In this document: positions 42,830 through 46,889 of the stretch, piece by piece | Layout of the letters: each line of letters begins with the position of its first letter | How positions within the stretch are numbered: the first letter of the stretch is position 1 | DNA from: Candidatus Thalassarchaeaceae archaeon | GTDB taxonomy: Archaea > Thermoplasmatota > Poseidoniia > Poseidoniales > Thalassarchaeaceae | DNA: 64,000 nt | Direction of reading: 5' to 3' | Assembly: GCA_030745885.1 (NCBI GenBank) | Contig: JASLNR010000048.1 | Span: 3,187-67,186, forward strand | The notes under the pieces: model-generated | Databases searched by the model: none | What the model saw: the letters and a program-made list of their open reading frames with translations, nothing else | Told to the model about the DNA's origin: nothing | Translations under genes and position numbers: made by a program

Positions 42830-43417
42830 ATGGCGTCAACCAACGTGGAGGAAGCAAGGAGGCGACTGGCCGGCAGGGTCCGCGACCTAGCCTACCTCCA
42901 CTCCGAGGACGAGCCTTTCACCCTAGCAAGCGGACGGCAGAGCAGCCACTTCTTCGACATGAAGCCAGTTATGATGGACCCCGAGTGCGCTCACTTGCTG
43001 GGCGTACTCATGCACTCCAAGATTGAGGAAATCGGACAAATCGATGCAGTGGGGGGCCTCGAACTAGGAGCGGTTCCCCTGACTGGCATCGCCATTGCCA
43101 AGGCAGGTAAGGGGTCGGAGCTGCGGGGATTCATAGTGCGCAAGCAGCCCAAGGGAAGGGGTGGCAGGAAGACCGGGAACCCACCGGGTATCGAGGGATC
43201 GAGCCTCAAAGATGGAGATAGGGTGGTGCTGTTGGAAGACGTGACTACCACAGGCGGGTCCGCGCTCATTGCCGCGCAGCGACTAATCGAGATGGGATGC
43301 GAGGTCGCTGCCTGCATCACCATCCTCGACCGTCAGGAAGGCGGAGCTGAAGCCTTCGAGGAGGCCGGCATAGCACTGACCCCACTGCTCGTGAAGTCGG
43401 ACGTTGCTGGTGGATGA
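42830..43417 (+). CDS. pyrE: Orotate phosphoribosyltransferase
   Basis: PyrE joins orotate and PRPP to give OMP in pyrimidine synthesis. The 195-residue protein has TLASGRQSSHFFDMKPVMMDP, GGLELGAVPLTG, RKQPKGRG(G)RK (flexible loop) and the PRPP site VVLLEDVTTTGGSAL. The loop around residues 105-120 (RKTGNPPGIEG) is slightly longer than usual. The gene overlaps the upstream start options of csaA. Confidence 0.93.
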   Translation: MASTNVEEARRRLAGRVRDLAYLHSEDEPFTLASGRQSSHFFDMKPVMMDPECAHLLGVLMHSKIEEIGQIDAVGGLELGAVPLTGIAIAKAGKGSELRGFIVRKQPKGRGGRKTGNPPGIEGSSLKDGDRVVLLEDVTTTGGSALIAAQRLIEMGCEVAACITILDRQEGGAEAFEEAGIALTPLLVKSDVAGG

Positions 43418-43418
43418 G

Positions 43419-43817
43419 ATGGGGCAGCACGAGATCGACTCCGAGACCGAGCCCTACCACCCATCGAAGATGGAGCGAAAGGAGTACATCGGGATTGGCG
43501 AGTTCTTCTCGGTCGACATGCGCACTGGAATCATCGACGAGGTTCAGGAGTTCCCCGAGATGCGCAAGCCGTCCTACAAGATCAGAGTGGACTTCGGCCC
43601 CGTGATCGGCAAGCTCTGGAGCTCGGCCCAGATTACCAACTACACCCGCGGGCAGCTCATCGGCAGAATGGTCGTAGGCGCCATCAACCTGGGAGACAAG
43701 ACGCTGCCGACGGGGTTCGTCTCGCAGTTCCTAGTGCTTGGGGCACTGGACCCCGACGGCACCGTGCGACTGCTCGAGCTGCCGGAGGCAACTCTTCCTG
43801 GTTCGGCAGTCGCCTGA
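43419..43817 (+). CDS. csaA: CsaA-like tRNA-binding domain protein
   Basis: CsaA is a small protein with the tRNA-binding (EMAP/Trbp111-like) fold, linked to protein export or RNA binding in bacteria. The 132-residue form has FFSVDMRTGIIDEVQEFPEMRKPSYKIRVDFGPVIG, SSAQITNYTRGQLIGRMVVGAINL and FVSQFLVLGAL; the key parts are MRTGII, EMRKPSY, SSAQIT and GAINL. The ATG at 43419 is the simplest start, beginning 1 nt after the pyrE stop; GTG 43410 or TTG 43404 are possible alternatives that overlap pyrE. Confidence 0.88.
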   Translation: MGQHEIDSETEPYHPSKMERKEYIGIGEFFSVDMRTGIIDEVQEFPEMRKPSYKIRVDFGPVIGKLWSSAQITNYTRGQLIGRMVVGAINLGDKTLPTGFVSQFLVLGALDPDGTVRLLELPEATLPGSAVA

Positions 43818-43869
43818 GCCTGCGGTGCCGAACCATACCCTATTGGACTGTTAGCCACGGTGAACTCAC

Positions 43870-44355
43870 ATGCCAACTGTAGTCAAGATGACAACCAGCG
43901 CCGGAGAGATACAGATTGCACTGTACACCGAGGACTGCCCTGAGACCACGGGGAACTTCCTCAAGCTCGTGGATGACGGGTTCTACGACGGCCTACACTT
44001 CCACCGCGTGATCAAGGACTTCATGATCCAAGGAGGATGCCCCCACTCAAGGGATCCCAACAATGGTAGAGCCGGTACCGGAGGCCCGGGATGGAAGATT
44101 CCGTGCGAGCCATCCGCCCTGAGCAAGCGCCACGACCGCCCCGGGCTGTTCTCGATGGCGAACTCGGGCCCGAACACCGGCGGCTCGCAGTTCTTCCTCA
44201 CCACCGTGCCCACACCCTGGCTCGACGGCAACCACGCGGTGTTCGGAGAGGTCATCGAGGGGATGGAGAACGTATACAGGATCGAGAATTGCGGGATCAA
44301 GCCCGGTGATCGCCCCTATGATCCCCAGCAAATCATCAGCATCGAGAGAGTATGA
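43870..44355 (+). CDS. Peptidyl-prolyl cis-trans isomerase (cyclophilin)
   Basis: A 161-residue cyclophilin, a protein-folding enzyme. The sequence runs TSAGEIQIALYTEDCPETTGNFLKLVDDGFYDGLHFHRVIKDFMIQGGCP; the key parts are CPETTGNF, HFHRVIKDFMIQGG with the catalytic Arg, FSMANSGPNTGGSQFFLTT and LDGNHAVFGEV. No signal peptide, so it is cytoplasmic. The size is close to small prokaryotic cyclophilins. It lies upstream of the fumarase gene across a 47-nt AT-rich promoter. Confidence 0.94.
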   Translation: MPTVVKMTTSAGEIQIALYTEDCPETTGNFLKLVDDGFYDGLHFHRVIKDFMIQGGCPHSRDPNNGRAGTGGPGWKIPCEPSALSKRHDRPGLFSMANSGPNTGGSQFFLTTVPTPWLDGNHAVFGEVIEGMENVYRIENCGIKPGDRPYDPQQIISIERV

Positions 44356-44366
44356 GGCTGAAACTG

Positions 44367-44402
44367 ATAATATTTATTAATAACTAATTAATAACTAATA
44401 AC
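44367..44402 (+). promoter_or_regulatory. Fumarase promoter with perfect tandem 11-bp repeat
   Basis: The spacer contains an AT-rich TATA-like block ATAATATTTA (44367-44376) followed by two back-to-back perfect copies of TTAATAACTAA (44377-44387 and 44388-44398), a partial third TAAC, and the ATG at 44403. With a TATA-to-start distance of about 25 nt the mRNA would begin at or near the ATG, so the repeats would lie between TATA and transcription start. This is the ideal position for a repressor operator. Confidence 0.65.
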
Positions 44403-46004
44403 ATGGCGAAGCACCGCGCGGGCAATCGCAGGATAATCACCATCAGCATACCAGAAGAATTGGCACGCAGGCTAGATGCGAGAGTCGGCAAGGGCCGCGA
44501 GAGCGGACGTTCGGCAACGGTATCTAGGATGATAGAGGGCTCGCTAGCTGGACGCGAGGTGTCCAGCAGAGCCAGCCCGGAGCCCGAGCCCAGACAAGCA
44601 CAGTCCAAACCGGGCAAAGTCCGGATTGAGAAGGACACGATGGGCGAGGTCGAAGTCCCTGCTGACAGATACTACGGTGCCCAGACCGCTCGATCACTGA
44701 CGAATTTCGACATCGGGGATGACATCATGCCTCGTTCTGTGATCAGGGCCTTCGGAATCCTCAAGCAGGCTGCTGCGGAAACCAACGTAGACCTCGGAGG
44801 GTTAGAACCCGAAATTGGTGACATGATTATTGCTGCATGCGACGAAGTCATTTCCGGTTCCCTTGATGGGCACTTTCCTCTGAGAGTATGGCAGACTGGT
44901 TCGGGAACACAAACCAATATGAACGCCAACGAGGTAATCGCTAACAGAGCCATCGAGGTGGCAGAAGGTAAGCTTGGCAGCAAGTCGCCCGTTCATCCCA
45001 ACGACCACGTTAATCGAGCCCAGTCCAGCAACGACACCTTTCCCACGGCGATGCACATCGCTGCAGCCGAGGAGTTCCACCACACGCTGATACCCGCAGT
45101 GAGGTACCTGCGAACTGCGCTGGCAGGGAAGTCTGACGAGTTCGCTGACATCGTCAAGATTGGTAGGACGCATCTCATGGATGCGGTTCCGCTGACTTTG
45201 GGGCAGGAGTTCAGCGCCTACGTCGCCATGCTGGACGCAGATGTCATCAGGGCGGAGAACGCACTCTCCGACCTCTTCGAGTTGGCCCTCGGTGGTACAG
45301 CGGTGGGAACCGGTCTGAATACGAGCCCTGACTTCGCCGATCAAGTCGCGCATAGAATAGCGGAGAAGACCGAACTTCCTTTCATCAGCGCTGAGAACAA
45401 GTTCGCACAGCTCGCTGCACACGACGCAATCGTTGCTGCATCCGGAGCAATCAATACCTTAGCCGTATCTCTGATGAAGATCGCAAACGACATTCGATGG
45501 CTTGGCTCCGGACCACGCTGCGGCTTCGGAGAGTTGGCACTCCCTGCCAATGAGCCAGGGTCGAGCATCATGCCCGGAAAGGTGAACCCGACGCAGTCCG
45601 AGGCGATGACGATGGTGTGCTGCCAAGTCATGGGCAATCATACCGCCATTTCCATCGGTGGTAGCCAGGGCAACTTTGAGCTCAATGTATTCAAACCAAT
45701 GATGATCCACAACCTGCTGCATAGTGTCCGACTAATCTCGGACACGTGCCTCTCATTCGCGGACAGGTGCGTAACTGGGCTGATAGCCAACAAGGGAAGA
45801 ATCGCCGAGCACCTCGAGAACTCATTGATGCTTGTCACCGCACTCAATCCCCATATAGGATACGACAATGCTGCTAAGATAGCTAAGAACGCCCATGAGA
45901 ATCACCTTACCCTAAGACAGAGCGCACTCGATCTCGAGATGTTGACCGAAGAGGAATTTGATGAGTGGGTCAAGGCTGATCTTATGACGGGCCCGAGCAC
46001 CTGA
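44403..46004 (+). CDS. fumC: Class II fumarase fused to an N-terminal ribbon-helix-helix domain
   Basis: The 533-residue protein has two parts. Residues about 8-56 ([20 protein letters not shown], then the Arg/Ser-rich turn and [10 protein letters not shown]) match the ribbon-helix-helix DNA-binding fold: a short strand, helix A, a turn and helix B. A Pro/Ser/Gln linker follows. From about residue 72 ([28 protein letters not shown]) the sequence is class II fumarase, with the substrate site [13 protein letters not shown], the [21 protein letters not shown] block, and the signature [16 protein letters not shown] (about 386-401). Fumarase interconverts fumarate and malate. The fusion is in frame; no stop or ATG separates the parts until M80. 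Confidence 0.9.
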
Positions 46005-46240
46005 CGGGGAGCTCCCCATTACACTCCAAAACGTCAGCGAGCGGAGCAAGAAGCTCCGCAACCGCAGCACTACTGACTAGTCGGGCCGATTTTATACCTA
46101 AGGTGTACAGGTGGGAGCAACAGGGGGTTCTGCACATGGGGGAGCATCCCCCCCTGTTACTCCGCAGGGTCCGGGTGTCCCCCGGGCCCTAAGGCCCGGG
46201 ATCCCCCGGGTAGACGTCTCCGGGACCACTAGGGTCCCTT
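46005..46240 (+). ncRNA. Putative structured RNA with promoter-like TATA downstream of fumarase
   Basis: No protein gene is supported here. After fumarase come GGGGAGCTCCCC (46006-46017) and GCGGAGC-AAGAA-GCTCCGC (46041-46059), which may end the fumarase mRNA. Then TTTTATACC (46089-46097) resembles a TATA box, followed by GGAGCAACAGGGGG (46114-46127), which pairs with CCCCCTGTTACTCC (46150-46163) with one mismatch, and by GGGGG-AGCAT-CCCCC (46138-46152) that would compete with it. Next are CCCGGGCC-CTAA-GGCCCGGG (46181-46200) and a GGGACC...GGTCCC stem (46222-46237). The density of stems and the TATA suggest a small RNA of about 130 nt. No known RNA family was matched. Confidence 0.35.
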
Positions 46241-46242
46241 TG

Positions 46243-46700
46243 ACGCGATGTTTCCTCCCCTTTCGCTTTCCTTCCTTCCCCTTCCTTGCGTCCAGTTCTC
46301 TCCAGTTCTCTCCAGTTCTCTCCACATCTCATACTCTCTCTCCAAGGGAGTCGCCCCCCTCTTCGCGTTCTCCGCTTCCCGTCCTGACTCTCGCCATTTC
46401 TTTCCACGGTTCGATACAGGCTCCTCCACGGGTCTCCCCGCCCTCGTTGCCTTCGTGTTTCCCTCCGCTTCCTTCCCCTTCTTTCCCTTTCCTTGCGTCC
46501 AGTTCTCTCCAGTTCTCCCCACTTCGTTCCCCACTCCCGCGACCCAGGTATTTTCTCATTCCCCCTACGCGCGCGTATCTCCGCAGCTTCTCTCTCGCTC
46601 TCCCCTTCTTTCCCTTTCCTTGCGTCCAGTTCTCTCCGGTTCCTCCGATCTCGTCGCTGCTCCACCTTCACGTCCACAGACGCTCCGGCTCTATCCCCGA
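46243..46700 (+). repeat. Pyrimidine-rich tract with a 36-bp direct repeat
   Basis: The plus strand is strongly pyrimidine-rich for about 450 nt. A 36-nt segment beginning CCCCTTCTTTCCCTTTCC and ending GTTCTCTCC occurs identically at 46475-46510 and 46602-46637. Its inner 20 nt CCTTGCGTCCAGTTCTCTCC is also at 46284-46303. Inside each copy the 10-mer TCCAGTTCTC is repeated in tandem: three times at 46291-46320, twice at 46498-46517 and once at 46625-46634. Open frames on both strands here are low-complexity and are not accepted as genes. The function is unknown. Confidence 0.8.
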
Positions 46701-46860
46701 TCTCCTTTCAGATTTCGGTTCTACCGCCCCGGCTTCGGGGCTCGGTTATTGTGGCCCGCGAATCGCGCCGAAGCGCCCTCGCACCACTCCCCCGGAGCGG
46801 CAAGGTCCACAGGGCCGTGACCGGCACATAAACATTTCTAGAGCATTACCGCAATACAAC

Positions 46861-46889
46861 GGAAATTAAGGTTCTGAGAGTTAATTTCC
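46861..46889 (-). terminator. Hairpin at the end of the beta-propeller gene
   Basis: GGAAATTAA (46861-46869) and TTAATTTCC (46881-46889) form a perfect 9-bp stem with an 11-nt loop, 8 nt after the stop of the minus-strand propeller gene. It may be its transcription terminator or mRNA 3' end. Confidence 0.5.

Follow-up and report, generated by a model that had tools for sequence, protein, structure and literature searches.

A ribbon-helix-helix domain fused to class II fumarase, and an accompanying promoter element, suggest a putatively self-regulating enzyme in Poseidoniales

The window that we analysed, a stretch of 64,000 nucleotides of Thalassarchaeaceae DNA, contains on its forward strand a single unbroken open reading frame of 533 amino acids (44403..46004, +), in which a ribbon-helix-helix (RHH) domain and a class II fumarase are joined in one chain. 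The RHH domain occupies residues 1-49 (44403..44549, +; core about 9-49) and is followed by a linker of variable sequence (44550..44615, +), whose length up to the fumarase motif was found to be about 24-29 residues in the 116 relatives measured. The fumarase itself comprises residues 72-533 (44616..46001, +). It scores 771 bits against TIGR00979 (fumC_II) over residues 73-529, where the cut-off is 664.75, it matches the Lyase_1 and FumaraseC_C domains, and 46 solved sequences of the fumarase superfamily align with the protein (E up to 1e-100), starting at query residue 64-74. The active-site motifs (GSGTxx and others), which we take to be those of class II fumarase, are all present in the window translation; among 121 fused rows they were found in 121, 120, 121 and 121, the last count being biased because this motif belonged to the pattern used for picking the rows. 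The reading frame is hence, on sequence grounds, an in-frame RHH domain plus an intact class II fumarase, for which catalysis is predicted. An earlier note on this DNA had described an N-terminal RHH domain connected by a linker to a full fumarase with both parts intact, and this architecture is confirmed by RHH_1 matches in relatives, by the fumarase score and by the single open reading frame.

Taken alone, the N-terminus from the window reaches 18.3-18.8 bits against RHH_1 (PF01402), slightly below the cut-off of 20.5. The same model is matched (E up to 1) by 19/19 related N-termini with a best E of 8.6e-6, and two fused relatives (G006 and G012) exceed the cut-off. When a profile of 118 fused N-termini was compared with free-standing RHH proteins of the same archaea, we obtained a match that spans the whole domain (probability 96.6, E 5.9e-10, 42 columns). 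The top matches among PDB sequences are to the RHH regulator NikR and are weak (E 0.33). The AF2 monomer places a strand at 9-11 and helices at 18-31 and 36-49 with low confidence (mean pLDDT 60.9), as might be expected of a single chain from an intertwined dimer; a Foldseek search with this low-confidence model gave two weak, unrelated matches, none of them RHH. Following the AF2 order, and with the same low confidence, we place the strand at about 9-16 and the helices at about 18-31 and 36-49. From the profile and family comparisons we conclude that residues 1-49 form an RHH domain. Its strand-helix-helix sequence signature is the one of the RHH/CopG regulators (PF01402, including NikR), which usually stand alone or carry a small ligand domain, whereas here the domain is fused to an enzyme of central metabolism.

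Conservation of single residues was counted on proteins in which the RHH domain had been called by blastp and not by motif. R10, I11, S15, P17 and E18 are invariant in 129/129 distinct fused proteins, in which position 13 is always S or T, while A21, L24, D25, G29 and G31 are invariant in 130/130; residue 9 is R in 125/129 and S in four. In Arc and CopG, the strand inserts the residues corresponding to 11, 13 and 15 into the major groove, and by analogy we assume that these positions of the RHH-fumarase face the DNA. These counts bear on the idea that the domain serves for oligomerisation or stability only and has lost its ability to bind DNA. An RHH domain is always dimeric and a tetramer is expected for the enzyme, which would suit such a tag. 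However, the predicted DNA-facing residues I11, S/T13 and S15 are as constant as the core (129/129), and a tag would leave the associated promoter element, described below, unexplained, so that we regard this reading as rather improbable. One clade (L014, L015, L021, L185, L206, L207 and L209) has a diverged RHH of the form MxKHNxGDRRI..DRWTG.

The earlier note had stated that no start codon lies between the two parts before M80. This did not hold, as in-frame alternatives are present at codon 20 (TTG, 44460), codon 43 (ATG, 44529, within RHH helix 2) and codon 53 (GTG, 44559). Together with codon 80, these starts could point to an artefact in which translation would truly start at or close to M80, leaving the RHH part outside the fumarase protein. 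Against this, 130 distinct proteins share the in-frame extension and conserve its amino-acid sequence, and the RHH-fumarase frame is unbroken in all matches listed for 318 genomes. A native start at M80, which the note had named as fatal to its reading, is contradicted by the conservation from M1 onwards in 129-130 distinct fused proteins. Nor are the RHH and the fumarase of relatives encoded apart, which together with a frameshift in the window was the other possibility considered by the note: the N-terminal matches listed for the 318 genomes (E up to a limit of 2.4e-16) all lie in open frames of more than 300 codons, and among them there is no free-standing copy of the fumarase-type RHH. M1 is the best start, given that conservation sets in with the first residues of the protein and that the promoter element stands at a near-fixed distance from it. 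The unbroken frames in relatives and the N-terminal conservation lead us to reject a frameshift or a wrong start; judged from these comparisons, the fusion is no annotation slip, and an artefact is scarcely credible.

The nearest relatives belong to Thalassarchaeaceae and Poseidoniales (Marine Group II) and are nearly all metagenome-assembled genomes. A survey of relatives for the fusion, as proposed by the earlier note, found a fumarase match in 275 and the 78-residue N-terminus in 182 of 318 Poseidoniales genomes. We read 171 Poseidoniales fumarase frames, a non-random sample for which fused and non-fused genomes were chosen deliberately; blastp called the RHH domain in 135 of them (130 distinct proteins), and the 36 without it include two at contig edges (L140 and L186). 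A search with residues 1-72 against 5.8 billion proteins, which covers only those of similar total length, returned 18 matches including the protein itself, all with Lyase_1. In a sample of 389 genomes from the phylum, beyond the order itself, the listed fumarases reach at most 53% identity, with matches that start at residue 50 or later; the one exception among them is G357, with a match from residue 31. The RHH-fumarase matches FumC (TIGR00979) over its full length and has its active-site motifs intact, but differs from it at the front end, in that no RHH domain was seen by eye in the N-termini of 10 bacterial relatives (L022 and nine others).

Upstream of the fusion lies a gene that we take to be peptidyl-prolyl isomerase-like (43870..44355, +). 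It ends 47 bp before the ATG of the fusion, and this gap contains TTTATTAATAACTAATTAATAACTAATAAC. In 14 of the 21 loci L001-L021, all 14 fused, less than 300 bp separate the end of the isomerase-like match from the start of the fumarase, the match being only 48% identical in one case (L009); in the other seven, including both non-fused loci (L018 and L019), the match lies 1.0-2.3 kb away. An isomerase-like neighbour adjoining non-fused fumarases was thus not borne out at L018 and L019. The region 42830-44355 of the window holds a pyrE-like gene, a short gene and the isomerase-like gene before the fusion, the names pyrE-like and isomerase-like being our presumptive assignments, and this order recurs in several related loci, for example L001-L003 and L010. 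Downstream of the fusion, at 46098-46870, overlapping low-complexity open reading frames are found in several frames.

The ATG is preceded by an AT-rich near-palindrome, TTTATTAATAACTAATTAAT. The sequence TTTATTAA (44373..44380, +) stands at -30..-23 from the ATG and occurs once in the 64-kb window, where 0.2 copies are expected by chance. If the transcript is leaderless, it would sit at the position of the TATA box. As the proposed operator we consider the near-palindrome TTATTAATAACTAATTAA at 44374-44391 (+; block 44374..44397), and a perfect 11-bp direct repeat, ATTAATAACTA in two copies (44376-44386 and 44387-44397, +), continues it. Within the last 60 bp before the gene, the core TTTATTAA/TTTAATAA is present in 112 of 118 fused promoters (122 proteins minus four without readable upstream DNA) and in 0 of 34 non-fused Poseidoniales promoters, for which the count was still 0 when the scan was extended to -260. 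With a relaxed palindrome pattern, the numbers are 61/118 and 0/34. In fused relatives the element is found at a near-constant distance from the ATG, and the DNA farther upstream is mostly unrelated. The mean pairwise identity of 18 loci is 0.61 at -32..-22, 0.47 at -21..-11 and 0.30 just upstream; the first two positions at three neighbouring genes gave 0.32/0.27 (n=15), 0.41/0.36 (n=12) and 0.27/0.24 (n=13), the n=12 control (g43404) having an approximate register set on a non-start residue and overlapping the preceding coding region.

At the genome level, the 18-bp pattern TTATTAATAASTWATTAA occurs once each in 26 of 40 fused genomes, always at -31..-11 of the fumarase gene, and is absent genome-wide in the other 14. 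Because any 18-mer is expected to be unique, the weight lies on the recurrence of the pattern at one place. In another clade, TTAATAATTAATTATTA was found upstream of the fumarase gene in 11/13 genomes, ten times at about -27..-10 and once at -74. It could be argued that the RHH-fumarase controls a wider gene set, for example other TCA-cycle genes, with the site at its own gene as one of several. Degenerate sites would indeed be missed by our genome-wide searches, which used exact long versions of the sites. The exact 18-bp pattern, however, was seen solely at the fumarase gene where it occurs at all, and the site of the sister order, discussed below, likewise lies only at the fumarase gene in 6/7 genomes, which makes a wider regulon quite improbable.

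Of 21 loci, 16 show the shorter TTTATTAA at its promoter position. Elsewhere in 146 kb of relatives, counted on both strands, it was found at seven places, five of them within 225 bp of a fumarase start, and so few copies away from the fumarase position argue that it is not a general TATA box. Several lineages (e.g. most of L218-L230 and L250-L265) keep a TTTATTAA-like arm only and are missing the second arm, so that an operator is less well supported than a specific element as such. The best palindrome arms average 6.31 as compared to 4.77 in shuffles, and AT-only sequence forms palindromes easily; the upstream arm may be just core promoter. A more far-reaching version of this thought is that the whole AT-rich block is only the core promoter and that the RHH domain binds elsewhere or unspecifically, for example as a chromosome tether. 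For a leaderless transcript, the block has the location expected of a TATA box; the second arm is seen in 61/118 fused promoters and is missing from the other half or so; and on the tree the palindrome by itself does not follow the RHH domain. This is countered by the rarity of TTTATTAA, with its one copy in the 64-kb window and seven off-position copies in 146 kb of relatives, by a conservation that extends to -21..-11 and hence past a TATA box, and by the lack of the element at 34/34 non-fused Poseidoniales fumarases read. We therefore consider the core-promoter explanation unlikely. From these comparisons we conclude that a conserved, locus-specific AT-rich element at about -31..-12 goes with the RHH domain, its binding by the domain being putative.

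A few further arrangements were noticed. By eye, a second, upstream copy of an AT-rich palindrome is seen at about -75..-40 in the fused promoters of L194, L197, L200, L205, L242-L244, L246 and L247. The clade with the diverged RHH has, again by eye, a split element with TTTAATAAC, and several of its members show GTTATTAAT or ATTATTAAT about 11 bases later, adjoining the ATG. In non-fused Poseidoniales fumarases (L144, L146, L148, L152, L156, L159 and others), the start is immediately preceded by conserved leaders of other kinds, which resemble gtgcgaactgtgaagaagttcagcccc in one group and gagggaaagggacatggacggtc in a second one and may be regulatory or coding.

A tree of 107 fumarases was calculated with IQ-TREE (quick search) from 94 archaeal rows, thinned from 164, and 13 bacterial sequences. 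L208 and L213-L215 (diverged start motif) as well as L226 (non-ATG start) were counted as fused; L030 (assembly gap) and L140 (contig edge) were left out, L211 (diverged start motif) is in neither tree, and L186 is cut at a contig edge. The Poseidoniales fumarases form one clade (99*) beside the bacterial class II fumarases, which points to an acquisition of the fumarase from bacteria. Within this clade, the deep branches are occupied by fused proteins, among which the non-fused ones are nested; the common ancestor of the order therefore probably already had the fusion, with several losses afterwards. The starred branches force at least five changes of the fused label, although the tree alone cannot separate gain from loss. 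A slightly wider element pattern is present in 61/62 fused rows and 1/38 non-fused rows, the latter including bacteria and other archaea, with a bacterium as the sole carrier. Five independent starred-branch pairs agree between element and RHH in nearly all pairings (p 0.0625, the minimum for five pairs). For the palindrome the counts are 32/62 and 0/38, but only about 2/5 pairs agree and the rest show no difference (p 0.5). One genome, G166, contains a fused copy with the element (L181) and a non-fused copy without it (L182), in an assembly that may be mixed. Together, the data suggest an old fusion, with later losses that would have taken the RHH domain and the element together.

The class comprises 339 genomes, 318 in Poseidoniales and 21 outside, which we take to be Marine Group III. 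In 18 of these 21 genomes we found a different conserved N-terminal domain, DYTSIRVTKEVRxSLQxYVEACY..LSINSMLKVHMENL, whose frame continues for 372-572 codons in 17/18 as a visible fumarase fusion; in the remaining genome (G586) the frame has 122 codons and meets a contig edge. The attached fumarase groups with other Thermoplasmatota (100*), apart from that of Poseidoniales, in a part of the tree where long branches call for caution. Upstream, TATGCA-N3-TGCATA or a close variant is located at -64 or -63 in the 17 loci read of 18. A second copy follows at -47 in 12/17, a weaker second copy is seen by eye in the other five, and a TATA-like stretch comes after the sites. Sister-order loci L170-L176 and L270-L287 have this fusion, preceded by one or two of the sites. 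In whole genomes, the exact sequence was found in 6/7 and only at the fumarase promoter; a reversed control pattern is absent from all seven. Perfect arms of 6-7 are unremarkable for such AT-rich DNA, since 38% of shuffles reach 6. The weight lies on the conservation of sequence and position and on the number of copies.

What kind of domain precedes the sister-order fumarase is less clear. A protein search with this domain, covering similar total lengths only, gave 86 matches, all with Lyase_1. The Pfam comparison gave an RHH match in 0/10, a search of PDB sequences no match, and the profile comparison with RHH a probability of 2.7; the two N-terminal profiles, of the Poseidoniales RHH and of the sister-order domain, have no mutual similarity. 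Only the predicted strand-helix-helix order (E6-10, H13-26, H32-42, at a low pLDDT of about 40-55) and a look by eye favour RHH, and the assignment is not established. If the domain were an RHH, one tetramer with two dimers would fit the paired sites. Among 13 read of the 23 short proteins that the N-terminal profile retrieved, none is a convincing stand-alone gene for this domain: four continue into the beginning of a fumarase, and the others have the appearance of fragments, cut or interrupted inside the N-terminal region. Both fusions place a small domain at the N-terminus of a fumarase, with a conserved palindromic site in front of the gene; they differ in their N-terminal sequence, in the tree position of the fumarase and in the site.

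To our knowledge, only a small number of enzymes regulate their own gene through an integral DNA-binding domain; among those with an RHH, PutA is the most familiar. Class II fumarase forms tetramers without such a domain. PutA, in contrast, is dimerised by its RHH domain (PMC5293562). Trifunctional PutA (proline utilisation A) is described there as an enzyme with an N-terminal RHH that acts as the autogenous repressor of its own regulon (PMC5293562). The RHH-fumarase too combines a metabolic enzyme and an N-terminal RHH in one chain, but the enzyme, the pathway and the domain of life are different. Another difference is that PutA moves to the membrane with proline (PMC5293562), while a switch in the RHH-fumarase is only putative. 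We found no description of an RHH-fumarase fusion in the open-access literature, which was the scope of our search. The available parts of a survey of archaeal fusion proteins (PMC11237513) discuss class 1 fumarase subunits and contain nothing like the RHH-fumarase. An autoregulatory enzyme with a built-in RHH is therefore already known in PutA, its occurrence on a fumarase appears to be new, and a parallel in the sister order is possible.

We propose that the RHH-fumarase is a PutA-like enzyme that would bind and repress its own promoter, a reading to which we assign a probability of roughly 63%. In this mechanism the RHH domain would make the class II fumarase its own DNA-binding regulator. 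The fumarase would form its usual tetramer, in which the four RHH chains could pair to two dimers, and these may bind the AT-rich element in front of their own gene. As the element would overlap the TATA position of a leaderless transcript, bound RHH could block transcription and in this way hold the fumarase at a set level. Of the idea in the earlier note that a metabolic enzyme binds its own promoter, the conserved fusion stands and a promoter element associated with the RHH domain has been added; the binding itself stays putative. More tentatively, and with odds that we put somewhat below even, two sister orders could have independently made different fumarases into self-regulators. In Marine Group II a bacterial-type fumarase would have received an RHH, in Marine Group III another fumarase would have gained a different small N-terminal domain, and either gene would have a palindromic operator dedicated to it. 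Fumarase would then be a self-metered control point of the TCA cycle in these archaea, substrate-gated as in PutA.

In summary, the fumarase probably controls its own amount by means of an N-terminal DNA-binding domain together with a matching, otherwise rare promoter sequence. With a named protein, a named site of 20-35 bp and natural controls that are without the RHH domain, the proposal is testable in vitro without culture. As far as the genomes tell, a core enzyme of the TCA cycle seems to regulate its own gene in a large part of an order of marine archaea.
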